Shown: piece by piece, positions 2,196 through 58,705 of the stretch
Numbering within the stretch: the first letter of the stretch is position 1
Layout: each line of letters starts with the position of its first letter
DNA from: a virus
DNA: 64,000 nt
Virus record (IMG/VR): IMGVR_UViG_3300044692_000050
Location: 1-64,000 of that record
Reading direction: 5' to 3' (one strand)
Notes under the pieces: generated by a model
Database searches by the model: none
What the model was told of the DNA's origin: nothing
Seen by the model: the letters and a program-made list of their open reading frames with translations, nothing else
Program-made: the position numbers and the translations under genes

Positions 2196-2795
2196 ATGGA
2201 CTCGACAGAAAGCGTCACCGTGGGCAAACGCCGGCTGGTGACGATGAATCAGATCGTCGCCTGGAACATGGCCTGGTACCGCCGCGAAGCAGGGATGACT
2301 CAGCAGCAGGTCGGCGACCACCTCGGATGGACCGCCCGCGCCGTATCCGAGGCCGAGCGGTCATGGGACAGCGGCAGGACGCGCGAATTCGACGCCCAGC
2401 TTCTGGCCGACCTCGCCGCGATCTTCGAGGTGCCCGTGATCGCGTTCTTCCTGCCGCCCGACGAGACCGACGGAGAGCTGCGCTACCCGTCGCCCGGGTC
2501 TGCCGGCGAACTGGACATGACGGATCTCATGTGGATCGTCATGCATGACAACGACAGCGAAGGCCCGGCGATGGAGGCGTTCCGCACCCGCATCCTCACC
2601 GCCGCCCGGGCCCGGCTGACGCCGGAGTGGGCGGAAGAAGTGGCCCGCTGGCTGAAGAAAGTCACCCCGGACTCCTTCATCGAGGACCAGGCCGCCATCT
2701 GGGAGTCCGAGGAGGCGTCCCTTGAGCGATCCCGAGACCGGGCCGGCCAGATGGCGCGAGCGCTCAGGGCCGTGCTGAAGGGCGAGCTGAAGTGA
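2196..2795 (+). CDS. XRE-family transcriptional regulator
   Basis: This 199-residue protein has an N-terminal HTH of the Cro/CI type: IVAWNMAWYRREAGMTQQQV then GWTARAVSEAERSW, about residues 20-60. The rest is an alpha-helical acidic region without a recognisable domain. It is divergent from the HTH/methyltransferase pair, and its last codons overlap the GTG of the integrase by four bases. It therefore probably controls integrase expression, and perhaps the divergent excisionase-like gene. Confidence 0.85.
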   Translation: MDSTESVTVGKRRLVTMNQIVAWNMAWYRREAGMTQQQVGDHLGWTARAVSEAERSWDSGRTREFDAQLLADLAAIFEVPVIAFFLPPDETDGELRYPSPGSAGELDMTDLMWIVMHDNDSEGPAMEAFRTRILTAARARLTPEWAEEVARWLKKVTPDSFIEDQAAIWESEEASLERSRDRAGQMARALRAVLKGELK

Positions 2796-4192
2796 AAGGC
2801 GACTCCATATACAAGCGGTGCAAGTGCAAGGATCCGGAGACCAAGAAGGAACTCGGCTCCGACTGCCCCGATCTGAAGCGCAAGGACGGGACGTGGAGTT
2901 CCAGGCACGGAACGTGGTACTTCTCGCTCGAGCTGCCGAAGGGTCCGGGTAATAAACGGCAGCCGAGGATGCGCCGCGGCGGGTTTGACAAGCGCGAGGA
3001 CGCCGAGGAGGCCCGCGAGAAGGCGCTGGCCGTCCTGCGCGAGGGCGTCGACCCGTCGAACCGGATGACGGTCGGCGCCTACCTGACCGAGTGGCTAGCC
3101 GGCCGCGTCAACCTGAAAGCAACCACGCGGCATAACTACGAGGCCAGCGTCAATACCTACCTGATCCCCCTGCTCGGCCACATCGAGCTCCAGCGGCTGA
3201 CGCCCCTGCACATCTCGCGCGCCTTCGCCACGATCCGCGAGTGGAACGACGACCTCGCCGCAGGGCGGCCGGTGCGGAAGTTCCAGCGCCACGTCGGCCC
3301 GGCCGCGATGCAGCGGATCCGCCACGTGCTGCGGTCCGCGCTCCGCGACGCCAAGCGCGCCCGGCTCGTCACGTACAACGCCGCCGAGGACGTGGACATG
3401 GAGCCGGAGCCGTCACGCAAGCCGGAGATCTGGACCGCCGAGCGGGTGCGGCAGTTCTGGCGCGACCACGAAGCCGCGCTCAAGCAGTCCCCGCTCACCC
3501 GCGGGGACCGGGCGTTCCTGGTGTGGCGGTCGCTCAAGCTGCGCCCGTTCCTGGTGATGATGTGGACGATCGAAGACCTCGGCGCGTTCCTGGACTACGC
3601 CGAGGGCAAGACGTTCGAGACCAGGACGCTGGCCGCGCTGTTCGAGCTCGCTGTCGCGACGGGAATGCGCCGCGGGGAACTGTGCGCGCTGCCATGGGCC
3701 AATGTCGACCTTGACAGGGGCGCGCTCTACGTCACCACGGCAGCGGTGCGGGCCGGCCGGCAGGTCATCCAGGGAGGACCGAAGACGGACAAGGGCCACC
3801 GCCGCGTCCCGCTCGCCGCGCAGGACGTGGCGCGGCTGAAGGCACACCGTGCCGCGCTGGCGAGGCAGCGGCTCGAGTACGGGCCCGGCTGGACGGAGAC
3901 AGACCTGGTGTTCACCCGGCTCGACGGCAAGCCGTGGCATCCTGACGCCATCACGAGTGCTTTCGAGCGGACGGCGTTTGCCGCGCACCTGCCGCCGGTC
4001 GGGTTCCACAGCCTGCGGCACGCGCACATCACCTACCTCTACGCGGCGAAGGTGGCCGAGCACGTGATCTCGGACCGGGTGGGCCACTCGGGCAAGAGGA
4101 TGACCCAGGCGTACGCCGCGGTGGCCGAGGAGATCTCGCACGAGGCGGCCGAGGCGGTCGCGGCGATGGTCCCGAGGCGGTCCGCGCGGTGA
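2792..4192 (+). CDS. int: tyrosine site-specific integrase
   Basis: This 466-residue tyrosine recombinase carries an N-terminal SAM-like core-binding domain (about residues 90-205) and a C-terminal catalytic domain. Active-site residues can be read as R294 in ATGMRRGEL, a lysine near 334 (GPKTDKGHRR), H406 and R409 in HSLRH, H432 in VGHSGK, and nucleophile Y441 in MTQAYA. A cysteine-rich N-terminus (CKCKD...DCPD) is typical of actinobacterial integrases. About 40 extra residues between the two domains (near 220-260) are slightly unusual. The gene is translationally coupled to the XRE regulator. About 100 bp downstream lies half of a tRNA-Thr gene, the expected attachment site. The set of catalytic residues is complete, so it should be active. 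Confidence 0.96.
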   Translation: MKGDSIYKRCKCKDPETKKELGSDCPDLKRKDGTWSSRHGTWYFSLELPKGPGNKRQPRMRRGGFDKREDAEEAREKALAVLREGVDPSNRMTVGAYLTEWLAGRVNLKATTRHNYEASVNTYLIPLLGHIELQRLTPLHISRAFATIREWNDDLAAGRPVRKFQRHVGPAAMQRIRHVLRSALRDAKRARLVTYNAAEDVDMEPEPSRKPEIWTAERVRQFWRDHEAALKQSPLTRGDRAFLVWRSLKLRPFLVMMWTIEDLGAFLDYAEGKTFETRTLAALFELAVATGMRRGELCALPWANVDLDRGALYVTTAAVRAGRQVIQGGPKTDKGHRRVPLAAQDVARLKAHRAALARQRLEYGPGWTETDLVFTRLDGKPWHPDAITSAFERTAFAAHLPPVGFHSLRHAHITYLYAAKVAEHVISDRVGHSGKRMTQAYAAVAEEISHEAAEAVAAMVPRRSAR

Positions 4193-10113: not shown

Positions 10114-10142
10114 TTGGTTCGCAAACATAGTTGTGGCAAACT
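10114..10142 (+). promoter_or_regulatory. leaderless promoter for the 10149 gene
   Basis: TTGGTT (10114-10119), a 17-base spacer and CAAACT (10137-10142) are followed by six bases and the ATG at 10149. The -10 is weak, but its placement mirrors the divergent promoter. Short repeats of GTTCGC and GCAAAC lie within and may bind a regulator. Confidence 0.5.
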
Positions 10143-10148
10143 AGACGC

Positions 10149-10370
10149 ATGGAACCTGATGAGAGGCTGGAACGGATCAGGAAGGCGCGGGTCGTCTACG
10201 ACCGCGCCAGAGCGAATCTGTTCCGCGAAATCCGCGACGGCCTGGCCGAAGCCGCACAGCTCCCCGAGAACCAGCAGCGAAAGCTCGGCCCCTCGGCGAT
10301 TCACCGGGCCTCCGGCTTCACCCGCGAGTACATCGCCAAGATCCGCGATGGCAAGGCAGACCCCAGCTAG
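10149..10370 (+). CDS. small HTH-like protein
   Basis: This 73-residue, charged, helical protein has a C-terminal GPSAIHRASGFTREYIAKI that fits a helix-turn-helix. It resembles in size and layout the gene at 19996, which also faces away from a leftward operon. A Cro-like or replication-control role is possible but unproven. Confidence 0.65.
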   Translation: MEPDERLERIRKARVVYDRARANLFREIRDGLAEAAQLPENQQRKLGPSAIHRASGFTREYIAKIRDGKADPS

Positions 10371-10452
10371 ATAACGACGACGAGACCGGCCACTCCGACC
10401 AAGAAGACAGCCGGCCCCGTCGCCCACTCCCATCTCTAGGAGCGTGTCCATC

Positions 10453-10506
10453 ATGCCATCCGACGCTGCCGCTACCCTGCGTGCCGTCAGGCGGTTACCC
10501 GGTTGA
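10453..10506 (+). CDS. possible 17-residue leader peptide
   Basis: An ATG with AGGAG ten bases upstream opens a 17-codon frame, MPSDAAATLRAVRRLPG. Its TGA overlaps the TTG start of the following zinc-finger gene (TTGA). It could couple translation of that gene, which has no ribosome site of its own. Confidence 0.4.
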   Translation: MPSDAAATLRAVRRLPG

Positions 10507-11069
10507 CCCCGGAAAGCACTCTCTGTCACCTCGGGCTCGCGGCCGACAGGTGCGCTTACGAGCACGTCGCTGCCCGCGTGCCGAAGGGCACCCAGGGCGA
10601 CAAGTCCAACCGCTCGTGCCCGTGCCACGACGACCGCAAGGCGTCGCTGTCCATCAACCCTGGCGACCGGGGCATGCGCGTCGTCTGGCGCTGCAACGCG
10701 GGCTGCTGGTTTGAGGACATCCGCGTCGCGCTGCTCGGCCTCGGCATCCATGAATCCTGCCTCGGAACCTACGGCCTGCCGAAACGCACCGTCGTGCCGG
10801 GCATGCGCACCACGACCGCGGACCTGGCCGTCATCGCCGACGCCAAGCGCTACCAGGCCGTCAGGAAGCTCCCGGTCAAGCTGAGCGACTCGCTGCGGCT
10901 CATGTGCATTCAAGCCATCAGCGAGGGAGACGGGGACCTGCCGGGCGATCCTTACGAGTTGCTGCCCGTGAACCTGGACGACTTCCGGGCGCTGGCCATG
11001 CGGGCGGGGATCGAACGGGGCTACACCTACCGCGTCTTCAGGCAGTGGATGGCTTACGGTGCAGCCTAG
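10503..11069 (+). CDS. CHC2-type zinc-finger protein (primase-like)
   Basis: This 188-residue protein has a DnaG/CHC2-like zinc finger: SCPCHDDRKASLSI...VVWRCNAGC, followed by VALLGLGIHE and LGTYG. The C-terminal half (DDFRALAMRAGIERGYTYR) may be a helix-turn-helix. No primase catalytic domain is present, so it is a stand-alone DNA-binding finger. It is a paralogue of the 37820-38614 protein, which shares the GC-E-ALLGLG-E-LG-YG pattern and the RAG-YR end. It is followed by a palindrome array, so a replication or copy-control role is inferred. Confidence 0.8.
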   Translation: MTPESTLCHLGLAADRCAYEHVAARVPKGTQGDKSNRSCPCHDDRKASLSINPGDRGMRVVWRCNAGCWFEDIRVALLGLGIHESCLGTYGLPKRTVVPGMRTTTADLAVIADAKRYQAVRKLPVKLSDSLRLMCIQAISEGDGDLPGDPYELLPVNLDDFRALAMRAGIERGYTYRVFRQWMAYGAA

Positions 11070-11412
11070 GTCCGTAGTGCTAACACCCAACCCAACCGTA
11101 GTACTTACAGGCTCCCGAGCGGTGAAGTCAAGCCGCGCAGGTAGACGCCTCGGGCCGAATCCGAAAACCTGTGCACTAAGTGCGCACCCTGTGAACAAAG
11201 TGCACGAGGCTGGCTGTGCACTAAGTGCACACGTCCCCGCGCTCCGTCCGAGCCCGGCTAGCCCCCTACTCGTCGCTGCCATCTCTAGCCCTCGCCGTCC
11301 TCTTCGCTGCCGTCATCCGGCACCAGCACCTCACAGAGCCCGTATCCGGCCGGTCGGCAGATCAGGTCCGGCCCGTGGTCGGCGTGACGGTACAGGACAG
11401 GCTCAGGCGCGC
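11070..11412. other. intergenic region with repeats, no gene
   Basis: This 343-bp stretch between convergent genes has no convincing coding frame. It holds the palindrome array at 11170-11231 and, nearer the left end, two imperfect copies of GTAGTGCTAACAC / GTAGTACTTACAG. Confidence 0.7.
11170..11231. repeat. three palindromic repeats (operator or iteron array)
   Basis: Three 17-base copies of TGTGCACTAAGTGCACA start at 11170, 11190 and 11215. Copy 3 is a perfect palindrome around a central A; copies 1 and 2 are slightly degenerate. Spacings of 20 and 25 bp and the position just past a zinc-finger gene suggest a binding array for replication or repression. Confidence 0.75.
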
Positions 11413-18247: not shown

Positions 18248-18381
18248 CAGCGGGGTTCTTCCTCGGGCCAGTCGTCGTCGGCGGCCCCGTCCCGGTCGGC
18301 GAGCCAGCGGCGCAAGGCGGGCGGGTCGTCGGGGAGTCGCGCCCAGCGGGACATCGCGGGGTCTTCGCCGAAGCCGTTCAT
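18247..18381 (-). CDS. 44-residue protein, unknown
   Basis: MNGFGEDPAMSRWARLPDD begins a 44-residue frame that fills the gap between two genes, overlapping one by one base and the other by four. That packing is the main evidence for it. Confidence 0.55.
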   Translation of the reverse strand: MNGFGEDPAMSRWARLPDDPPALRRWLADRDGAADDDWPEEEPR

Positions 18382-18875
18382 GCTGCCGGGTCCTCATCTG
18401 CGGCTTCGCGGGCGGCGCGGGACTCGGCCGCTTGCTGAAGCGCCTTGTCCTGCGGGGTGGGCACGTGGGGAATTGGCAGCGCGGCGCGGGCTTCGGCCCA
18501 CGTAGGCGGCGGGTCGTCCTCGCGGACTGGAGTGGTGATTGCTTTCGGGATGGCCCTGCCGTCCGCGATGGCCCGAAGTTCGGCCTTGAGCGTCTCGCGG
18601 AAGCGGACCGGATTGTCGGCATCCTCAGGCGGCGGTGCCGGGACGATCTCGCGGGCGAGGCGTTCGCGGCGCATGGCCTTGACGCGGGTCCGGACGTCAG
18701 CCGGCATGATCCACTCGCGGGACTCGCGGTAGTAGTCGGCGACGGCGGCTCTAGCGTCCGCGAAAGACAGGTCGCCGATGAGGGCCTGCCAGGTCTGCCG
18801 GTCGGTCAGCCCGAGCTTGCGGCGATCGACGCTGGCGATGATCTCCAGCAGGTCCCACACTTCGTCGCTGTTCAC
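18378..18875 (-). CDS. phage replication accessory protein (possible loader)
   Basis: This 165-residue protein (VWDLLEIIASVDRRKLGLTD, WQALIGDLSFADARAAVADY, WIMPADVRTRVKAMRRERLA) resembles the short protein often encoded next to phage replication organisers. A helicase-loader role is inferred from position only. It is coupled by four bases to the replication protein at 18872-19798. Confidence 0.65.
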   Translation of the reverse strand: MNSDEVWDLLEIIASVDRRKLGLTDRQTWQALIGDLSFADARAAVADYYRESREWIMPADVRTRVKAMRRERLAREIVPAPPPEDADNPVRFRETLKAELRAIADGRAIPKAITTPVREDDPPPTWAEARAALPIPHVPTPQDKALQQAAESRAAREAADEDPAA

Positions 18876-19798
18876 GTGATCACGCTTCCTTGGATGGTTC
18901 CGGGCGGGTTGCCTTCGCGCTGCCGGCGGTCAAGCTCGCGCAGCTGCGCCACATCGGCGCGGCGCTGGTCGGCGGCTGACCCAGGCCGGCCACCGACTGT
19001 CGGCGGCGATGCACGCGATGCCATGAGTCGCCTGTGGGAGTCGGCGATCCACTTCTGCCACGGCTCGACCCAGGACTTTTTCTTCTTGCCCTCGCCCTTG
19101 AAATGCCGTTTGAACTGGGTTGTCTCGAAGTCGAGATCAAGGCCGGGGTGTGTCGAGTGTGCCCATCTGCGCATGGCATCGGAGGGCTGGAAGTCGTCGG
19201 GGACTTCGGTGTAAGCCGGCTGAGGTGCATTGGGCACGGCGTGCGCTCGCGCGACCTCCCTGCCACCTGCTCCATGCAACCTGCCACCTGCAACATAAAG
19301 AAGCGCTGACTGCGCTGCGCCCGGCTCGGGTTCGTCTGTGCGTGGCGCATACTCGTCTGCGCGAGACTCGGACGAGTCGTCTCCGGGTTGGGAATCATCC
19401 GGTTTAGGCGCTGATGGCCTAGGTGGCGGCTCGGGGTCGTCGGTGCCGGGCGCAGGGGGTTCGGGAAGCCGGCTCTTGACCTTCTCGGGTTCCAGGCGCT
19501 GGTGCTTGGGAAGCTTCGGCAGGTGCAGATACGGATCGCCGTCGACCTCATACGGGACCACTGCACCGAGCGCGGGACTTGCCAGTTCATCAAGCAGCTT
19601 GGCGATGACTGCGGCGTCGATGTCGTCGTCGTAGGAGAAGATCTGGCCCTTGATCCATTGCGGATCGCCGTTCAGGCGGGCGTGTTCATCGGCGAGGTTC
19701 CATAGGCCGATGTACAGCAGGCGAGCGTCACGCGATGTGCGTTTCGCGAGCTTCCTGTCATCCCAGAACTCAGGCTTGACGCTCCTGATACGGGCCAA
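18872..19798 (-). CDS. phage replication initiation protein
   Basis: This 308-residue protein begins ARIRSVKPEFWDDRKLAKRT then ARLLYIGLWNLADEHARLNG, the N-terminal winged-helix signature of phage replisome organisers. A disordered Pro/Asp/Glu-rich linker (about residues 115-190) leads to a C-terminal part with FKGEGKKKKSWVEPWQKW. The start is TTG, chosen because ARIRS is the usual N-terminus and GGAAGG lies upstream. It heads a leftward run of tightly coupled genes. A second, different replication locus lies at 36.7-38.6 kb. Confidence 0.85.
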   Translation of the reverse strand: MARIRSVKPEFWDDRKLAKRTSRDARLLYIGLWNLADEHARLNGDPQWIKGQIFSYDDDIDAAVIAKLLDELASPALGAVVPYEVDGDPYLHLPKLPKHQRLEPEKVKSRLPEPPAPGTDDPEPPPRPSAPKPDDSQPGDDSSESRADEYAPRTDEPEPGAAQSALLYVAGGRLHGAGGREVARAHAVPNAPQPAYTEVPDDFQPSDAMRRWAHSTHPGLDLDFETTQFKRHFKGEGKKKKSWVEPWQKWIADSHRRLMASRASPPTVGGRPGSAADQRRADVAQLRELDRRQREGNPPGTIQGSVIT

Positions 19799-31091: not shown

Positions 31092-31430
31092 CTAGCTCCC
31101 TGCCTTAGCGGCCCGCTCAGCCGATGCGGAACGCTCAGGGGCGAGAGGGTCGGCGGCCTGGCTCACTGTCCCCGCGTCCAGGATGCCCGCCACCTCGTCC
31201 AGTTCCTCAAGGATGGCGAGCCGCTGGGCGAGTTCGGCCGCGTCCTTGAGGATGGTCTGCGCGTTCAGTGAGCCGAGTCTCTGCCCGTTGTTGAGACGGT
31301 CAAGGACGATGGCGGCGTACTGCCAGATCTCCGTGGCGTTCTTGATGGCGGCCCCGATGTGCCGCTGGCGGAGGTTGTTGAACTGGCGTTCCTGGAAGGT
31401 GTCCAGTCCGGGGATCTTCTGGGCGGTCAT
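31092..31430 (-). CDS. helical protein, unknown
   Basis: This 112-residue helical protein (ERQFNNLRQRHIGAAIKNAT, TILKDAAELAQRLAILEEL) is coupled to the antitoxin-like gene by four bases. It does not resemble a known toxin. Confidence 0.65.
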   Translation of the reverse strand: MTAQKIPGLDTFQERQFNNLRQRHIGAAIKNATEIWQYAAIVLDRLNNGQRLGSLNAQTILKDAAELAQRLAILEELDEVAGILDAGTVSQAADPLAPERSASAERAAKAGS

Positions 31431-31759
31431 GGCTTCTCCTGCGGGGTCTGGGTGATCTCAGGCGCGGCGGCCTTCTTGATCTCGGCTAGCGCCGCCTCAC
31501 CGATAGCGCTGTGCAATTCGCCGATCGGCAGTTCGCTGTCGTCGGGCAGCATGCCGCCGTCCGTGTCGTGGGTGAAGGCGTAGACGCCCTTGTAGACGGC
31601 GTTCGCGTTGCGGTACCAGTCCACGGGGACTACGACGACTGCGGGGGTGTCATAGCGCATGACGGTGACGTGGGCGCCACCGTGCTCAACCTCGTCGAGA
31701 AGGTCTCGGAACCTGCGACGTGCCTCGTCGCTGTGGATGCGCCGTTCGGGAATGCTCAT
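31427..31759 (-). CDS. Phd/YefM-like protein
   Basis: This 110-residue protein starts like a Phd/YefM antitoxin: SIPERRIHSDEARRRFRDLL followed by VTVMRYDTPAVVVVPVDWY. The rest is acidic. No RelE or Doc toxin is adjacent, so it is an orphan, perhaps a DNA-binding regulator or an anti-toxin against host systems. It overlaps the DUF574 gene by four bases. Confidence 0.75.
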   Translation of the reverse strand: MSIPERRIHSDEARRRFRDLLDEVEHGGAHVTVMRYDTPAVVVVPVDWYRNANAVYKGVYAFTHDTDGGMLPDDSELPIGELHSAIGEAALAEIKKAAAPEITQTPQEKP

Positions 31760-36701: not shown

Positions 36702-37769
36702 TCAGGGGCGGTCATGCTGGCCCCCGTACTTCCCAACGTGCCGCAGGGCCTCTGTCGCGCAGCGCCGGGCATCGCGGTGCACCTCGCTTCCGCCGAACCT
36801 GACAATGCGCCATCCGGACTCTTCGAGTAGGCGCTGGCGCTGCCGGTCCCTGGCGATATCCGTCGGGCTGGAATGCGTAGCATGCCCGTCGATCTCAAAC
36901 CCGACCTTGACGCCGGGACCGACTCTCTCCGTCAATGCGAAGTCCAGGAAGAAGTTCCTTCCCTTGACAGTGACCGGGAACTGCGGCGCGAGGATGGCGG
37001 CCAGATCGGGCGGCCACACGTCCTTGCATGCCCGCAAGAACATCTGCTCGACAGGAGAGCCGAGGGCAGGGCCGGCCGCCGTGACGGAGAACAGGGTCAG
37101 GCGGAAGGCTCCCTTGTGGCTGGCCGACAGGAGCGCGAGGCGCGTGCCGCAGGCGCAGACCATCGTGATGACGTTGTAGCCCCCGCAGGTCTCCAGGGGA
37201 TTGCTGGGTTCGTAGCGCCTTTGATCCGGATGAGCGAAGACGTTCGCGCCGACGCCGCCCGCGATTGAGCTGTCACCGCAGCGCGGGCAGAGCAGGTCCC
37301 CATCTGGAGAGAACCTGAGAGGCCGCTTCGCCCATACCCAGGAACCCGGCTCCCCTTCCGGTGGCCCCCAGGCCGCGGGCCATGCGGGGAAGTCCGGGTG
37401 TAGCCGGTACGACTTTCCGTTGCCGACCGCGGGCGTTTCCTCGGCAGGGTCCCCGTCGGCCACCTCATCGGCGTACCGTCCATCGCGAAGCCAGCTCGAC
37501 GCATGGGGGATGTACTTGGTTTCGGTGCCGTTCTCACGGCATTTGACAGCGAACCGCCTGGCCGCGTCGATGATCTCGTCGGAGTTGCCGCTCTTGCGGG
37601 TCACCCGCTGCCACAGCCTCTGCGCGCCCGCCTTGCCGATCTTGCGCGGGTAGGCAGCCCAGAACTCATCGAACTTCGGGTCGGGCGTCGTGCGGCGACG
37701 TCGCCCTGCCGACGCCTCGACGGGGATCACGCTGAGCCCGTAGTTGGGATCACTCTCGCTGGGGGTCAT
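36702..37769 (-). CDS. replication-domain / Vsr-like nuclease fusion
   Basis: This 355-residue protein joins three parts. Residues 33-98 (FDEFWAAYPRKIGKAGAQRL, HASSWLRDGRY) resemble the C-terminal domain of phage replication initiators. Residues 161-208 hold a zinc ribbon (CPRCG, CACG). Residues 236-345 look like a DUF559/Vsr-type PD-(D/E)XK nuclease: FFLDFAL with D276, VGFEIDGHATH with E292 and D294, RDRQRQRLLEESGWRIVRF. A cut at the origin or mismatch-type cleavage is possible. It lies next to the repeats at 37801-37965 and the zinc-finger gene. Confidence 0.8.
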   Translation of the reverse strand: MTPSESDPNYGLSVIPVEASAGRRRRTTPDPKFDEFWAAYPRKIGKAGAQRLWQRVTRKSGNSDEIIDAARRFAVKCRENGTETKYIPHASSWLRDGRYADEVADGDPAEETPAVGNGKSYRLHPDFPAWPAAWGPPEGEPGSWVWAKRPLRFSPDGDLLCPRCGDSSIAGGVGANVFAHPDQRRYEPSNPLETCGGYNVITMVCACGTRLALLSASHKGAFRLTLFSVTAAGPALGSPVEQMFLRACKDVWPPDLAAILAPQFPVTVKGRNFFLDFALTERVGPGVKVGFEIDGHATHSSPTDIARDRQRQRLLEESGWRIVRFGGSEVHRDARRCATEALRHVGKYGGQHDRP

Positions 37770-37800
37770 ACTGCTGGCCTCCTGCTCCTGGCCTGGGGTT

Positions 37801-37965
37801 TTATCATTTTGATAATCGCCTACGCTGCCGGTTTCGTCATGCCTGCCGAGCGCAGGGCCTCCAGCGCCGCCGCCTCCATCGCGGCATTATCATTTTGATA
37901 ATCGTTCGGGGCCGAATCATTATCACTTCGAGAATCCGACCCCCCTGGCTCTATCAAATTGATAA
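37801..37965. repeat. four AT-rich palindromic repeats, candidate origin
   Basis: Copies of TTATCATTTTGATAA start at 37801 and 37887 (identical), with diverged copies at 37920 (TTATCACTTCGAGAA) and 37951 (CTATCAAATTGATAA). The last three are spaced 33 and 31 bp apart. Copy 1 is intergenic; copies 2-4 lie inside the 3' end of the zinc-finger gene, where they encode Asn/Asp/Ser-rich residues. Iterons inside a replication gene recall the lambda O origin. Confidence 0.75.
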
Positions 37966-38614
37966 TGCCCGCATCCTCAGTGACCTGCGAAGCTTGACGC
38001 TCGTCTTCAGGCTGTGTTAGTACAACGTGGTCTGGAATTACCGCGCTCTGACCCTTGGCCTTCACTAGAGGGTCGGTCCCCCAGAGGCGGTAGGCACTGG
38101 GCTTCGGAACTCCGGCCCGCACCGCGAAGCTGACATAATCCGCCTCGCTCCCGACGGGGACCTGGACTCCCTCAAAGGCAGCCAGGATGCGGATCTTCAG
38201 CAGTCCCATCTTCAGGTCCGAGTTCATCAGCCCCGTGACGCTCGCCTTGAGTTCCAGCATCTCCCAGCGCAGCCGCTCAACTTGCCTGTCCAACTCCCTG
38301 ATCTGGGCGCGCTCTGCGGCGTTGGACCGAACCTTGCGCTTCATCTCATACTCGGGCGTGCCGTAGGGGCCGAGAAACTCCTCGGACATACCGAGGCCGA
38401 GGAGTGCGGCGCGGACTACCTCGTCGTCGCAGCCGCCATGGCAGCAGAACACGACGGGGATCGCGTCGCCGGGCGCGATGGCGAATGACCGGCGCCGGTC
38501 GGCGTGCCCCGGAACGGGGCAGCGGGCGTAGTACTGGCCAGGCTTAGAGCCGGGAATAGCGCTCGGCAGGTAGCGCAGCACTTCGCTTGCGAACCACTGC
38601 GGGACAGCAACCAC
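37820..38614 (-). CDS. CHC2-type zinc-finger replication protein
   Basis: This 264-residue protein opens with a DnaG-like finger: YYARCPVPGHADRRRSFAIA then VVFCCHGGCDDEVVRAALLG, followed by LGPYG. A coiled coil (RAQIRELDRQVERLRWEMLE) and a possible HTH (FAVRAGVPKPSAYRLW) follow. The tail is disordered and encodes the repeats. No polymerase domain is present. The paralogue at 10503 has the same layout. A role in origin binding or primer control is inferred. GTG start with GGAG upstream. Confidence 0.8.
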   Translation of the reverse strand: MVAVPQWFASEVLRYLPSAIPGSKPGQYYARCPVPGHADRRRSFAIAPGDAIPVVFCCHGGCDDEVVRAALLGLGMSEEFLGPYGTPEYEMKRKVRSNAAERAQIRELDRQVERLRWEMLELKASVTGLMNSDLKMGLLKIRILAAFEGVQVPVGSEADYVSFAVRAGVPKPSAYRLWGTDPLVKAKGQSAVIPDHVVLTQPEDERQASQVTEDAGIINLIEPGGSDSRSDNDSAPNDYQNDNAAMEAAALEALRSAGMTKPAA

Positions 38615-38798: not shown

Positions 38799-38999
38799 CT
38801 ACTCGGGCAGGTCGAACTCGCCGCGCTTGGCGCCCGCGAGGAAGCACTCCCACTCGTGCCGGGTGAACACGTGCGGGGCCTTGCTGCGGTCCTTGGTGTC
38901 GCGGACGCCTACCTCGTCGCCGCGGAACGCCACCTCGACGCAGCCGATGTCGTTGCTGCTGTCGCTCTTGAACCAGTGCGCGTCGTTCCAGTCGTTCAT
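38799..38999 (-). CDS. DUF397 protein
   Basis: This 66-residue protein has the DUF397 signature: AHWFKSDSSNDIGCVEVAF then VGVRDTKDRSKAPHVFTRHE and WECFLAGAKRGEF. In actinomycetes such small proteins act with a DUF5753 XRE regulator, as in WhiJ-type systems, and affect development. ATG 38999 overlaps the DUF6879 stop by four bases. Confidence 0.92.
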   Translation of the reverse strand: MNDWNDAHWFKSDSSNDIGCVEVAFRGDEVGVRDTKDRSKAPHVFTRHEWECFLAGAKRGEFDLPE

Positions 39000-39559
39000 G
39001 CCGCGTGCTCCCTCTCGGTGATGTTGTTTGCTGCCACGTACTCGGCCAAAGGTGCCGCGAGCCTGAGTGCGTCGTCGCGCTCCGCGCAGAACCATGCCAA
39101 CTCGCGTTCATTACGGGTCATCTCGACTCGCACCACTTCCCCGCCGTCGTAGACGAGGATGGCCGCGAGGTCGTCATCGAACAGCCAGTAGTCGTAGGAC
39201 GCGAGCCATTCCTCGTACGCCCTCTCACGACCTAGGACGCGTACGTCCTCACCCGCCTCCACCGAGGCCGGGGAAGCGTGCAGCAGGGAGAACCGGACAT
39301 AGTTCGTGACCGGCTCTGTCACGACCTTGACCCGCTGCATGGTGCGGCCGGATGCGCGGACCTCGCGGACGAGCTTCTTCCACGGCTCGCGCCATGCCGG
39401 GTCCACTGGCTGCCCGGCGAGGAACTGCGCGAAGGGCACCGTCTCGTTGTCGGCGGCGTAGTAGTCCAGCGTCTCTATGCGGAAGACGCGCCGCTTGAAC
39501 AGGCCGGTGAACTCCTGTCCTAGCTGTTCAAGCGTGGTCACGTTGTTCAGAGTGCTCAC
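38996..39559 (-). CDS. DUF6879 protein
   Basis: This 187-residue protein matches the actinobacterial family found beside DUF397/XRE pairs: LFKRRVFRIETLDYYAADNE, then FAQFLAGQPVDPAWREPWKK and a C-terminal acidic region. The GTG start at 39559 has TAGCCT six bases upstream and no good ribosome site, so it may be leaderless. It is divergent from the DUF5753 XRE gene. Confidence 0.88.
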   Translation of the reverse strand: MSTLNNVTTLEQLGQEFTGLFKRRVFRIETLDYYAADNETVPFAQFLAGQPVDPAWREPWKKLVREVRASGRTMQRVKVVTEPVTNYVRFSLLHASPASVEAGEDVRVLGRERAYEEWLASYDYWLFDDDLAAILVYDGGEVVRVEMTRNERELAWFCAERDDALRLAAPLAEYVAANNITEREHAA

Positions 39560-39576
39560 ATCACTAGGCTAGCCCC

Positions 39577-39619
39577 TGACTTTCATTGAGGCCAGCCTTA
39601 CACTGACTTAAATGACTTA
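39577..39619. promoter_or_regulatory. TGACTTA repeats in the divergent promoter
   Basis: TGACTTT (39577-39583) and TGACTTA at 39604-39610 and 39613-39619 lie between the divergent genes, around a possible rightward promoter (TTGAGG 39586-39591, TTAAAT 39608-39613). Related repeats TGACTCA/TGACTTA occur upstream of the gene at 40560. Confidence 0.5.
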
Positions 39620-39638
39620 ACCCTTTGGGAGCGCGAGC

Positions 39639-40478
39639 ATGAGCCACCCGCCGTCACCGTCACAGCAGCGGCTTACCTCCATCCTCAGGGGCCTGCGCGA
39701 ACGCTCCGGGTTGAGCACCTACGCCCTCGGGAGTGCGCTCGGGTGGAGTCAATCCAGGGTGAGCCGCATTGAACGCGGTGAGGGCAAGGCGGCCAGCGTC
39801 GAGGAGGTCCAGGCGTGGGCCGATGCGACCAGCGCCGACACTGCGACCCATGCTGAGCTGGCCGCGCTCGCGGAGCAGGCATGGGACGAGACCCGGTCGT
39901 GGCGCGCTTCGCACCGCGGCGGTCTCGCTGCCCGGCAGCGCGAGATGGGCGAGTACGAGCAGCAAGCTACCGAGATCCTCCAGTTCACCCCCGCCACCAT
40001 CCCCGGCCTGCTTCAGTCCCCCGCCTATGCCCGGTCGGTCATGACCTTCGGGGATGTCACCAGTCAGGGCGGCATAGACGAGGCCGTAGCGGCGCGCATG
40101 AGGCGCCAGGGCGTGCTCCGCGACGAGGGCCGCAGGTTCGAGTACCTGCTGACCGAGGGCGCGCTCCGCTGGAATCCAGGGCCGCCCGAGGTCGCTGCCG
40201 AGCAACTCGCGCACCTTCTCGCCGCCGCGAAGCTCCCCGCCGTCTCGCTGTCGGTCATCCCGTTCAGCCGCCGCCCGGCCGGCGTGTACCTGCACCCCTT
40301 CACGATCTACCGCATCCCTGACGCCCCGGCTGTGCTGGTGGAGAACTACCACGCTGAGAGCTTCATCGCGGAACCCGGCAGTCTTGCCATCTACGAGCGG
40401 ACGTTCGCCATGCTGCTCGCTTCCGCCGTGACCGGTGATGAGGCGGCCGAGTTCATGCGGGCCGTTCTTCTCGGTTAG
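39639..40478 (+). CDS. XRE regulator with DUF5753 (Scr1-type) domain
   Basis: This 279-residue protein has an N-terminal HTH (ILRGLRERSGLSTYALGSAL, SQSRVSRIERGEGKA) and the C-terminal DUF5753 domain: EYEQQATEILQFTPATIPGL, LQSPAYARSVM, RRQGVLRDEGRRFEYLLTEG, VIPFSRRPAGVYLHPFTIY and a final VTGDEAAEF. Such regulators partner DUF397 proteins, here encoded divergently. ATG with GGGAG seven bases upstream. Confidence 0.95.
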   Translation: MSHPPSPSQQRLTSILRGLRERSGLSTYALGSALGWSQSRVSRIERGEGKAASVEEVQAWADATSADTATHAELAALAEQAWDETRSWRASHRGGLAARQREMGEYEQQATEILQFTPATIPGLLQSPAYARSVMTFGDVTSQGGIDEAVAARMRRQGVLRDEGRRFEYLLTEGALRWNPGPPEVAAEQLAHLLAAAKLPAVSLSVIPFSRRPAGVYLHPFTIYRIPDAPAVLVENYHAESFIAEPGSLAIYERTFAMLLASAVTGDEAAEFMRAVLLG

Positions 40479-43176: not shown

Positions 43177-45594
43177 GTGAGCGAGCAGGAACGCCCGGAC
43201 GTGCCGGACTGGGCAGAAGCCGGGGAAGATGAGGCGCTTGAGGGTGTCGTCGTCCCGCTGCGCCCCGGCGCGCCCGAGCACGCTCTCGCCCCGTCGCCAC
43301 GCCACTCCGCACCCGGCCAGCCAGGCGAGCTCCGGCAGATCATCCCCGGCCAGTTCCGCTCCTGGGACGCGTTCCGCAAGCACTACGGCTGGCACCTGCA
43401 CCGCGCCGGGCATCACGCCGCCTACCACCTGTTCCCGTCACGGGCGATAACCCGGCTCGTCAACACCCTGCGGTATGCGGCAGTCGGCATCGGGAAGTTG
43501 CTGGTCGCGCTGATCGCCTGGTGGCACGTCGCCGAGCAGGCCTACCTGCGCAACGAGGCGGTCGCCGCGAACGACCCCCGGACTTACCTGCAACTGCAGA
43601 AAAACGGCAAGGAATCCCGCCTGACCCGCGGACTGGTCCTGCTCGCCTGCCTCGCCGCCGCGGTCCTCGCCGGCGCGCTGATCACCGTTCACGTCCCGCT
43701 GGCGTGGATCCCGATCGGCTGCGTCGCCGTCCCGCTGCTGGCCTGGGCCGGGCGTCCCGCCGACAAGCCCATCCTCGACTCTGCTGTCACCCCGGTCCAC
43801 CTCGAGCCGCTGTCCCGCGAGGTAATCGTCCGTGCACTGAGCACCCTGGGCATCGGCGAGCTCACCAAGGCCATCGGCAGGGATCCCGAGCGCGCCGTGG
43901 TCCTAGTCGACCCGATCGTCCGCGACGGGCCCGGCTGGCTGGCCCGCCTCGACCTGCCGCACGGCGTCACCGCGTCGGCGGTCATGGACAAGCGCGAAGA
44001 ACTCGCCTCCGGGCTGCGCCGCTCCATCGGCTGCGTGTGGCCCGAGAACGAGCGCAGGCGCCACCCCGGCGCCCTGAGCCTGTACGTGAGCCACGAGGAC
44101 ATGTCGCAGGCCTCTCAGCCGTCCTGGCCGCTGGCCAGGCGCGGCGCGGTGGACATGTTCCGGCCGGTCCAGTTCGCCACCGACCAGCGCGGCAAGCCGA
44201 TCACGATCACGCTCATGTTCGTGTCCATCATCATCGGGAGCGTCCCGAGGATGGGCAAGACGTTCCTGCTGCGCCTGCTGCTGCTGATCGCCGCCCTCGA
44301 TGTCCGCGCCGAGCTCCACGTCTACGACTTCAAGGGGACTGGTGACCTGGCAGCCCTGCGCGCGGTGGCGCACCGTTACCGGGTCGGCGACGACGAGGAC
44401 GACATCGAGTACTTCGTCGCCGACATGCGCGCCCTGCGCGAGGAGCTGCGGCGGCGGACCAAGGTGATCCGCGAGATCGCCGAGAAGCAGCCGGCGCTGT
44501 GCCCGGAGAACAAGGTGACCCCGGAACTGGCCAGCCGTAAGGATCTCGGCCTGCACCCCATCGTGATCGCCGCCGACGAGTGCCAGGTGCCGTTCACGCA
44601 CCCCGGTTACGGCAAGGAACTGGTGGAGATCGCCACCGACCTCGCCAAGCGCGGCCCGGCTCTGGGCATGATCGAGGAACTGGCGACCCAGCGCCCGGAC
44701 GCCAAGGCCATCCCGCGTGACATCAGCGCCAACGCCGTCCTGCGGATGTGCCTGAAGGTCATGGGTCACATCGAGAACGACATGATCCTCGGCCAGTCGG
44801 CACACAAGAACGGCTACAAGGCCACCATGTTCGACTTCGATGACAAGGGCATCTTCTACTTCTCCGGCGAGGGCAGCGCGCCGCGGATCTGCCGCAGCTT
44901 CGAGATCGACGGCCCGGCCGCCACGAAGATCGCCGCCCGCGCCCGCGCCATGCGGGAGCAGGCCGGCCGGCTGACCGGCTACGCGCTCGGCCAGGATCAG
45001 GCCGAAGAGGTCCGCTCGTTCCTCGCTGACGTGCTGGACGTGTTCGGCGCTGACGCCAAGCTGTGGCTGACGACGATCGCCGACCGGCTGCACGGCCACG
45101 TCTCGGGCGCCTACCCGGACATCACCCCGGAGGCGGTGGCGAGCCAGCTCCGCGCCCTGAACGTGACCGTGAAGGACGTGCGGGAGCCGGGCCAGGCGGT
45201 GCGCAAGGGCTGCGAGTGTACGGGCGTGCTCGCGGCGATGGGTGATGCGGTCCCGTCCGACCCGCCGCCTGCGCCCCGCCCGGTGCCGCAGCGAGCGCGC
45301 GCCGATGCCGTGCCGGATCCCGAAGCGCCCGCGCCGGCGGATGACTGGCCGCACGACTTCCAGGATCTGCTCCTCCATGCCGCCGAGCTCATCATCACCA
45401 CCCAGCACGGCTCAAAGCAGATGCTGCAGCGCAAGCTCCGGGTCGGGTTCGACCTCGTGGCCCGGATCATGGCCGAGCTCCAGGCCGCGAGGATCGTCGG
45501 ACCGGAGAACGGCACGCCGGCGCGGGATGTCCTGAAGCGTCCGGAGGAGCTTGAGGTGACTCTTGAGATGTTGCGGGGAGCGGTCCATGCCTAG
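43177..45594 (+). CDS. FtsK/TraB-like dsDNA translocase
   Basis: This 805-residue protein is an FtsK/SpoIIIE-type ATPase. Three membrane helices lie near residues 100-118, 152-170 and 173-192. Walker A is GSVPRMGKT (354-362) and Walker B IVIAADE (462-468). The end (about 720-805, HAAELIITTQHGSKQMLQRK then LVARIMAELQAARIVG) is a winged helix like FtsK gamma, which reads short DNA repeats. In actinomycete plasmids and AICEs one such protein (TraB) moves double-stranded DNA between cells. GTG with GGAG upstream. Its neighbours (DUF6919, SpdB-like) are of the same type. Confidence 0.94.
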   Translation: MSEQERPDVPDWAEAGEDEALEGVVVPLRPGAPEHALAPSPRHSAPGQPGELRQIIPGQFRSWDAFRKHYGWHLHRAGHHAAYHLFPSRAITRLVNTLRYAAVGIGKLLVALIAWWHVAEQAYLRNEAVAANDPRTYLQLQKNGKESRLTRGLVLLACLAAAVLAGALITVHVPLAWIPIGCVAVPLLAWAGRPADKPILDSAVTPVHLEPLSREVIVRALSTLGIGELTKAIGRDPERAVVLVDPIVRDGPGWLARLDLPHGVTASAVMDKREELASGLRRSIGCVWPENERRRHPGALSLYVSHEDMSQASQPSWPLARRGAVDMFRPVQFATDQRGKPITITLMFVSIIIGSVPRMGKTFLLRLLLLIAALDVRAELHVYDFKGTGDLAALRAVAHRYRVGDDEDDIEYFVADMRALREELRRRTKVIREIAEKQPALCPENKVTPELASRKDLGLHPIVIAADECQVPFTHPGYGKELVEIATDLAKRGPALGMIEELATQRPDAKAIPRDISANAVLRMCLKVMGHIENDMILGQSAHKNGYKATMFDFDDKGIFYFSGEGSAPRICRSFEIDGPAATKIAARARAMREQAGRLTGYALGQDQAEEVRSFLADVLDVFGADAKLWLTTIADRLHGHVSGAYPDITPEAVASQLRALNVTVKDVREPGQAVRKGCECTGVLAAMGDAVPSDPPPAPRPVPQRARADAVPDPEAPAPADDWPHDFQDLLLHAAELIITTQHGSKQMLQRKLRVGFDLVARIMAELQAARIVGPENGTPARDVLKRPEELEVTLEMLRGAVHA

Positions 45595-56544: not shown

Positions 56545-56982
56545 ATGGGAGTTAAAGGGGCGGTCCCGAAGCGGACCGACCAGCTGCACGGCCACCGGAA
56601 GCCCCCGGCGACAGATAAGGCCCCGACTCCGCCCGGGGCGGCGTCGTACCGGCGCCCGGCGGCTGACAGCACGTGGCATCCGCTGGCGAAACGCTGGTGG
56701 AACGCCCTGAGCAAGTCGGGGCAGTCCACGTGGTACCAGCCGTCTGACTGGGAGCACGCCTACATCTGGGCGGAGATGCTGTCGCGGCAGCTGTTCTCAG
56801 CCAAGCCGTCTTCGATGATGCTGGCAGCATGGGATGCGGCATCGGTCCGGCTGCTGGTGACCGAGGGAGACCGTCGCAGGATGCGCATCGAGCTCGACAA
56901 GGGCGGCGAGGTCGATGCGGATAAGGAAGCCGCTGTAGCGAGCATGCAGGCGTGGCGTGCCAACCGCGCTAGCGGTTCCTGA
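56545..56982 (+). CDS. terS: phage terminase small subunit
   Basis: This 145-residue protein resembles the small terminase of actinophages: a basic N-terminus (VPKRTDQLHGHRKP), then WHPLAKRWWNALSKSGQSTW and WEHAYIWAEMLSRQL, and a helical end. It should recognise phage DNA and load the large subunit. It overlaps the large-subunit start by 26 bases. Confidence 0.85.
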   Translation: MGVKGAVPKRTDQLHGHRKPPATDKAPTPPGAASYRRPAADSTWHPLAKRWWNALSKSGQSTWYQPSDWEHAYIWAEMLSRQLFSAKPSSMMLAAWDAASVRLLVTEGDRRRMRIELDKGGEVDADKEAAVASMQAWRANRASGS

Positions 56983-58705
56983 CCGCCGCCTTCCTGCGCC
57001 GGCTGACCGGCTGATCACGCTCCCCGCGGGCGAACCTGAGCTGACGCTCGGCTGGCATGCGATCGTGTGGGCCGGGACGTACCTGAAGCACCCGAACGGG
57101 ATCCGGGCGGGGCTGCCGTGGAAGTACACCGACAGCCAGCGCGCTTTCGTTCTGTGGTGGTACGCGATCCACCCGGACGGCCGGTGGGTCTACCAGCACG
57201 GAGTGCGCCGCCGCAGCAAGGGCACTGGCAAGAGCCCGGGTGCGGCGACTCTGTCGCTGACGGAGCTGCTGGCGCCTGTCCGGTTCGCGGGGCTGGCCGA
57301 TACGGACGTGCCGTACCTGGAGGGGAACGGCAGGAACGGCCTCCCCGCCGGGTGGGTGCAGATCGGCCGGGTGATCGGCAAGCCGGTGGCGATGCCGCTA
57401 GTGCAGATCGCGGGTGTGTCCGAGGCCGCGACGGCGAACACGATGCGTCACGTCCGGGCGATGACGGCGAAGAACTCCAAGGTCGTCCAGGCGTACCACC
57501 TTGATCCGGGCAAGACGGTGATCTACACGCCGTCAGGCGGCCAGCTCGAGGTGATCACGTCGTCGGCGGCTTCGGCTGAGGGGGCCGAGGTGACCGCGGC
57601 GTTCCTCGACGAGCCGGAGCACTGGACGCCCGCGTCAGGCGGGGTTGAGCTCGCCGCGACGATCGACCGCAACCTGGCCAAGTCGGGGTCCCGGGCGATC
57701 GAGACGGCGAACGCGTGGGAGCCGGGCGCGGGGTCGGTGGCTGAGGCGACGTTCGAGGCGTGGTGCGCGCAGGAAGAAGGCCGCACGAAGTCAGGCGCGC
57801 TGATCCTGTACGACGCCGTGGTCGCGCCCCCGGACACGGACCTGGCCGACGAGGAGTCGCTGCGCAAGGGGATCGCGTTCGCCTATGACGACTCGGACTG
57901 GGTTGACCAGCAGGTCATCATGGACCGCATCCTGTCGCTGCGGACCAAGCCGGACGAGGCGCGGCGGTTCTACCTCAACCAGCCGGTGGCCAGCGCCGAT
58001 TCGTGGGTGACGCCGCAGGAATGGGCGGTCCTCGCCGATCCGACACAGGTCATCTGCGATGGCGATGAGATCGTAGCGTTCTTCGACGGCTCATCCAGCC
58101 GGGACGCGACGGCCTTGATTGCCTGCCATGTCGAGACGGGCTATGTGTTCACGGTCGACATATGGGAGCCGGAGCCGGGCCCGTCGCATTCTCCGGGAGC
58201 GGCCCGCATCCCGGTCGCCGAGGTCGACGCTGCGGTTGAGCGGATGTTCGACCGGTGGCAGGTCTGCGCGTTCTTCGCTGACGTGAAGGAATGGGAGTCC
58301 TTCGTCAAGGTGACCTGGCCGGAGCGGTACGCGGAGCAGCTAGAGCTCCACTCGGTGCCGTCGGGCAAGGACCCGCAGGCCATCGCCTGGGACATGCGGA
58401 CGCACACCTACGAATTCACGCTGGCCGCCGAGCTCACCTTGACGGAGATCACGGGCGACACCGGGCCCGCGTTCCGTCATGACGGGGATTCGCGGCTAGG
58501 TCGGCATGTGGTCAACGCCCGGCGGCATCCGAATCGGTGGGGCGTCTCGATCGCCAAGGAATCGAAGGATTCGCCAAAGAAGATCGACGCGGCTGTCTGC
58601 ATGATCGGGGCGCGGCTAGCACGCAGGCTGCTGCTGGCCGAGCGCGCTAAGCAGCAGCAGAAGGCGAAGAAGCCCAGGTCAGGTAGGGTTCACGGCTTCG
58701 CTTAG
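56957..58705 (+). CDS. terL: phage terminase large subunit
   Basis: This 582-residue packaging ATPase and nuclease has Walker A RRRSKGTGKS (84-93), Walker B AAFLDEPEH with acidic pair 218-219, and an RNase H-like nuclease with D378 (AFFDGSSSRDATAL), D442 (AFFADVKEW) and D544 (KKIDAAVC). It drives DNA into the prohead and cuts it. GTG start. The 3' end overlaps the minus-strand gene at 58679 by 27 bases. Confidence 0.96.
   Translation: MPTALAVPDRRLPAPADRLITLPAGEPELTLGWHAIVWAGTYLKHPNGIRAGLPWKYTDSQRAFVLWWYAIHPDGRWVYQHGVRRRSKGTGKSPGAATLSLTELLAPVRFAGLADTDVPYLEGNGRNGLPAGWVQIGRVIGKPVAMPLVQIAGVSEAATANTMRHVRAMTAKNSKVVQAYHLDPGKTVIYTPSGGQLEVITSSAASAEGAEVTAAFLDEPEHWTPASGGVELAATIDRNLAKSGSRAIETANAWEPGAGSVAEATFEAWCAQEEGRTKSGALILYDAVVAPPDTDLADEESLRKGIAFAYDDSDWVDQQVIMDRILSLRTKPDEARRFYLNQPVASADSWVTPQEWAVLADPTQVICDGDEIVAFFDGSSSRDATALIACHVETGYVFTVDIWEPEPGPSHSPGAARIPVAEVDAAVERMFDRWQVCAFFADVKEWESFVKVTWPERYAEQLELHSVPSGKDPQAIAWDMRTHTYEFTLAAELTLTEITGDTGPAFRHDGDSRLGRHVVNARRHPNRWGVSIAKESKDSPKKIDAAVCMIGARLARRLLLAERAKQQQKAKKPRSGRVHGFA

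Follow-up and report, generated by a model that had tools for sequence, protein, structure and literature searches.

Introduction

Why does a replication gene of a G+C-rich phage contain a cluster of AT-rich palindromes at its 3' end, and do these palindromes belong to an origin of replication? The window, which is the whole stretch of DNA analysed here, comprises the first 64 kb of a viral record of 102,340 bp (G+C 0.69). The phage is actinobacterial and 102 kb in size. A search with its terminase returned 5 loci in viral_contigs and no relatives in genome_contigs. One relative of similar size (G004, 103,428 bp) has the terminase, the portal, genes of the tail region and a number of early genes in common with the window. 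No DnaB_C match was found in the whole 102 kb record. The GC skew is uninformative, because its maximum, at 31.8 kb, is close to the switch in predicted gene direction. The features discussed below are collected in Table 1.

Table 1. Positions of the genes and repeats discussed in the text
Feature	Position	Strand	Evidence or remarks
Tyrosine integrase	2792-4192
Paralogue C of gene 2 (CHC2-like and HTH-like)	10503-11069	+	BLASTP to gene 2, E 2e-16; phrog_6088, E 1.4e-7
Three 17 bp odd palindromes, consensus TGTGCACTAAGTGCACA	11170-11231		Starts 11170, 11190, 11215; 1, 3 and 0 mismatches
Module A companion	18378-18875	-	phrog_8924 (unknown function), E 7e-20; 43% identity in G004
Module A, canonical replication initiator	18872-19798	-	phrog_1408, E 4.1e-43
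Gene 1, FWAAYPRK domain and MTES_1575/DUF559 nuclease domain	36702-37769	-	phrog_270, PF18741, PF04480
Palindromic iteron copy 1, TTTATCATTTTGATAAT	37800-37816		Gap between gene 2 and gene 1
Gene 2, CHC2-like zinc-binding region, coiled coil, HTH-like region, Asn/Asp/Ser-rich tail	37820-38614	-
Palindromic iteron copy 2, ATTATCATTTTGATAAT	37886-37902		Within gene 2
Degenerate iteron copy 3, ATTATCACTTCGAGAAT	37919-37935		Within gene 2
Iteron copy 4, TCTATCAAATTGATAAT	37950-37966		Within gene 2, frame differs from copies 2 and 3
Terminase	56957-58705		Relatives mostly actinophages

Several other genes were observed in the phage. An FtsK/SpoIIIE-like protein with an FtsK gamma domain, comparable to those of actinobacterial conjugative elements, is encoded at 43177-45594 of the window and has no match in viral_contigs. 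Adjoining DUF397, DUF6879 and XRE-DUF5753 genes, a combination well known from mobile elements of actinobacteria, are located at 38799-40478, and a Phd/YefM-like antitoxin gene at 31427-31759 is followed by a small gene that may encode a toxin. Elsewhere in the record (L005) are a 547 aa protein that resembles Ro60/TROVE by eye (98897-100540) and a TnpB-like protein (93156-94367). Both have counterparts in G004 with 60-64% identity, that of the TnpB-like protein in another position.

The palindrome cluster

The initial annotation reported four near-copies of a repeat at 37801-37965, and these were recovered with start-to-start spacings of 86, 33 and 31. The coordinates also bear out the placement of three copies at the 3' end of the CHC2-like gene (gene 2) and of the remaining copy in the spacer ahead of the replication/nuclease fusion (gene 1). 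Each unit is 15-17 bp long, an odd palindrome best written ATTATCAANTTGATAAT. It is exact (TTATCATTTTGATAA) at 37801 and 37887 and degenerate at 37920 (TTATCACTTCGAGAA, 3 mismatches) and, on the reverse strand, at 37951 (CTATCAAATTGATAA, 2 mismatches). The palindromes are real and not a product of chance. The number of sites with up to 3 mismatches expected in the window is 0.01, 7 matches were reached in 0 of 100 shuffles, and no further site with up to 3 mismatches to TTATCAANTTGATAA was found anywhere in the 102,340 bp record. The locus has the repeats that mark an iteron-type origin, clustered, phased and far beyond what chance would give.

The repeats had been thought to force the Asn/Asp/Ser-rich tail of gene 2. 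The three copies inside the gene stand, but what is repeated is DNA and not peptide. Copies 2 and 3 are read in one frame (DYQNDN and DSRSDN), copy 4 falls in a second frame (IINLIE) and copy 1 is not in the gene at all. When the 60-codon tail was recoded synonymously 20,000 times, at most two sites and never three were obtained. Because the copies span different frames and the gap, and no recoding gave three sites, the repeat is assigned to the DNA level. No other 50 bp or 165 bp stretch of the record is as poor in G+C as those in the cluster; much of this is due to the repeats themselves, and no AT-rich tract apart from them was demonstrated. DnaA boxes are not in excess and none is near the cluster, and no DNA similarity of the 36.6-38.7 kb region to known phages was found.

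Helically phased odd palindromes of this size (15-17 bp) also fit repressor arrays. The sites could be operators at which a dimeric regulator, either the gene 2 protein or one of the XRE proteins of the phage, controls gene 1 or the early operon; copy 1 precedes the start of gene 1 by about 30 bp and several HTH regulators are encoded nearby. However, three copies are within the upstream gene and not at a promoter, the sole promoter-like match faces the opposite way, and the motif class associates widely with initiators, as described below. Control of transcription is an unlikely role for these sites.

Gene 1 and gene 2

The initiator identity implied in the initial annotation holds in a different place than expected, as the family match is not to the zinc-finger gene but to the second gene of the pair. 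Residues 23-113 of gene 1 match positions 169-254 of the 383 in phrog_270 (E 9e-21), which means that the C-terminal FWAAYPRK-type domain of O-like (phrog_270/678) initiators is present. The N-terminal winged-helix DNA-binding domain of such initiators is absent from gene 1, which starts near the FWAAYPRK domain. Residues 268-343 form a nuclease domain with scores of 44.3 bits for PF18741 (cut-off 38.2) and 23.6 bits for PF04480 (cut-off 20.6). The nuclease residues D, E-x-D, H, D and R are present when compared by eye with a homologue from a Streptomyces canus plasmid. No helicase or helicase loader gene was seen beside gene 1, and no close relatives of gene 1 were found in viral_contigs.

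The joining of an initiator domain to a nuclease has a proven precedent in Odn of phage ICP1, an origin-directed nuclease that cuts the PLE origin (PMC8263062). Like gene 1, Odn is linked to semi-palindromic iterons. By analogy, the gene pair could be a chimeric nuclease directed against the origins of competing replicons that share the iterons. The parts differ, however. Odn combines a RepA_N DNA-binding domain with a T5orf172 nuclease and has a foreign origin as its target, whereas the initiator part of gene 1 is the C-terminal half, so that a fusion of an initiator DNA-binding domain to a nuclease was not found here. Such a nuclease would also cut the phage itself, because the target sites are in its own DNA. 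A weapon of this kind is very unlikely.

The CHC2 match of gene 2 is weak (phrog_6088 primase, E 5e-5; Pfam Zn_ribbon_DnaG, E 0.3, below cut-off). A long helix at about residues 99-130 is predicted with pLDDT 82-91, and this coiled coil is the sole usable part of the structure models, which are poor for both proteins. The HTH-like stretch YVSFAVRAGVPKPSAYRLW was recognised by eye; there is no Pfam or PHROG helix-turn-helix match in gene 2. A sequence search against solved structures found nothing. Close relatives of gene 2 are absent from viral_contigs and genome_contigs, and a search with an alignment of both paralogues also returned none. It is proposed that gene 2 encodes the iteron-binding half of the initiator.

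A cluster of repeats beside a gene for a DNA-binding protein may also mark a partition or incompatibility locus, in which case the gene 2 protein would bind parS-like sites. Repeated parS loci are in use in mycobacterial phages (PMC7157519) and provide a precedent. In the present record, however, a search with PF13614, one of the ParA families, revealed no ParA-type ATPase, an integrase is present and the neighbouring gene encodes an initiator domain. A partition locus is highly improbable.

A paralogue with its own palindromes

Gene 2 has a paralogue in the window, paralogue C, with 31% identity over 153 aa (BLASTP, E 2e-16). No FWAAYPRK neighbour was seen. Three palindromes begin about 100 bp past the stop codon of paralogue C, with a geometry like that at gene 2 and a different sequence. 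Gene 2 and paralogue C thus each have odd palindromes of their own, clustered at or just past the 3' end. A small HTH-like gene (10131-10370), paralogue C and the three palindromes make up a second candidate initiator/iteron module at 10131-11231.

In a blind search of the whole record for similar pairs of odd palindromes, 3 of the 5 pairs found were at gene 2 or paralogue C, and the same search gave 1 pair each in G004 and G005. At least 13 of 15 bases agree in two of the pairs found; among 20 simulated genomes, just 1 contained such a pair. The initial annotation had looked to related elements for conserved placement with changed sequence. A similar pattern is seen at gene 2 and paralogue C, although here the comparison is inside a single phage instead of between relatives. 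The palindromes of paralogue C also bear on the operator reading. No promoter is expected at them, because the genes on either side are apparently convergent.

A motif of this kind at initiator genes of other phages

When viral_contigs were scanned for two TATCANNNTGATA sites 10-40 bp apart, at least 120 loci were found. Among the matches listed for the 79 distinct nearby ORFs, 23 were to phrog_678 (O-like initiator), 21 to phrog_270, 20 to phrog_428 and, for DnaD-like loaders, 14 to phrog_186 and 13 to phrog_6493; these counts overlap since a single protein can match several families, and many of the ORFs are from related prophages that share a 45 bp spacing, so that the independent cases are fewer. 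A control pattern of matched base content, TACTANNNTAGTA, gave 62 loci. Its 25 commonest families contain no initiator or DnaD-like loader, although primases and DnaB-like helicases do occur. In many surveyed genes the sites are at codons 100-130, beyond the N-terminal domain. At L030, L031, L080, L125 and L140, for example, they are inside the gene or at its end, and in some cases a DnaB-like helicase gene follows. The association is with winged-helix initiators, and gene 2, in which no Pfam or PHROG helix-turn-helix match was found, may not be one. The rep genes of the lactococcal phages Tuc2009 and TP901-1 were considered as experimentally studied bearers of the motif and were rejected; the motif is absent from both, and Tuc2009 rep has other repeats of its own.

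TATCA-N3-TGATA pairs appear to mark O-like or DnaD-like initiator genes in many unrelated phages (L021-L140) and may help to find origins in unannotated phage contigs. The iteron reading of the cluster and its analogy to lambda O, put forward in the initial annotation, are well supported by the TATCANNNTGATA pairs at initiator genes, by the position of the iterons in FWAAYPRK initiators and by the palindromes of paralogue C.

Module A and the number of origins

The window contains a canonical replication initiator in addition to genes 1 and 2. Two 17 bp repeats, 21 bp apart, are located inside the initiator gene of module A (19259-19296). The position of its companion suggests a role as a helicase loader. 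Both module A genes are kept in G004, where the initiator gene contains 11 bp repeats of the CTCACGGAGGA type at about 45250-45442 of that record. Genes 1 and 2 are both absent from G004. Module A is therefore the conserved replication module, and the candidate module formed by genes 1 and 2 is most likely an accessory replicon. The claim that the cluster is the best candidate origin in the window is consequently not secure, given the canonical initiator kept in G004 and paralogue C with its palindromes at 10503-11232. The cluster at 37801-37965 is probably one of two or three replication origins in this phage.

Could the module be a non-functional remnant of a different mobile element that was inserted in the phage? 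Its absence from G004 and the presence of typical actinobacterial mobile-element genes nearby (FtsK-like, DUF397, DUF5753) are compatible with this. On the other hand, neither reading frame is interrupted, no part of the nuclease motifs seems to be missing and the sites have been well preserved. A remnant is thus extremely improbable.

Proposed mechanism

The explanation that is favoured, with a fair measure of confidence, is that the palindromes are the iterons of a candidate lambda-O-like origin, with an initiator divided over two neighbouring genes. The gene 2 protein would dimerise through its coiled coil and bind each palindrome with its HTH, and the phasing of 31-33 bp would stack the dimers on a single face of the helix. 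The AT-rich stretch at the palindromes may then melt. The gene 1 protein would join through its FWAAYPRK domain and bring in a helicase; the DnaB of the host is proposed because the phage has no recognisable DnaB. Once the origin is assembled, the putative nuclease domain of gene 1 would probably act on the DNA there.

It is also possible, though rather doubtful, that these genes represent a new class of initiator, in which duplicated proteins with a primase-type zinc finger and an HTH each have 17 bp odd palindromes of their own and one has a detached FWAAYPRK-nuclease protein. If this were so, the origin might be nicked or cut at a specific site during initiation, or the system might be an origin-directed weapon against related replicons. 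Gene 2 and paralogue C are a natural pair for studying how such proteins choose their sites.

Comparison with known origins

An origin inside the initiator gene is established for lambda O, and in lambda and Stx phages the iterons and an AT-rich part are in the gene between the DNA-binding and helicase-recruiting halves of the protein (PMC7466680). The lambda origin has four iterons (PMC7466680). The lambda iteron sequence differs from that in the window, and lambda O is an intact single gene, whereas in the window the split between the genes falls at the iterons, with a CHC2-like N-terminal half and a nuclease on the C-terminal half. O-type phage initiators keep their binding sites in their own gene, and it is at this point that the gene seems to be parted.

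Both an origin inside an initiator gene and more than one origin per phage, as proposed here, have parallels in other phages. SPP1 has two origins, oriL and oriR, that are both bound by gp38 (PMC6316719). For P1 an origin (oriL) inside repL has been postulated with experimental support, and replication declines when the AT-rich part of repL is altered by synonymous changes (PMC9948254). An origin inside the initiator gene has also been proposed for mycobacterial RepA phages (PMC7157519). The SPP1 and P1 proteins are unrelated to those of the window, and SPP1 uses one protein for both origins, whereas here each paralogue has a separate site sequence.

Mycobacteriophages Nanosmite (gp73) and Reindeer (gp70) have, like gene 1, a stand-alone FWxAYPR domain without a DNA-binding half. 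Unlike gene 1, these genes are directly upstream of a phage DnaB and encode no nuclease, and no repeats were found at them.

A likeness in order is also seen to FWAAYPRK initiators from Arthrobacter phages Lilmac1015 and Renna12, a Moorella phage and an Actinoalloteichus plasmid (L206-L209), in which tandem iterons of 20-24 bp precede the FWAAYPRK domain and separate it from the DNA-binding N-terminal half. One of these initiator genes, on the Actinoalloteichus plasmid pGBA129-24a, is annotated only as a hypothetical protein; it encodes an apparent winged helix followed by FWAAYPKK and contains five 22 bp iterons (L208, 3726-3851). It adjoins genes for an ATP-binding protein and DnaB, unlike the genes in the window. 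Lilmac1015 gp46, Renna12 gp45 and the pGBA129-24a protein are each encoded by one undivided gene; the N-terminus is apparently a winged helix, the iteron sequences are different and there is no nuclease. They share with the window the order of DNA-binding half, iterons and FWAAYPRK domain. The iterons at the junction of gene 2 and gene 1 are placed between the same two halves, and a stop codon and a new start part them.
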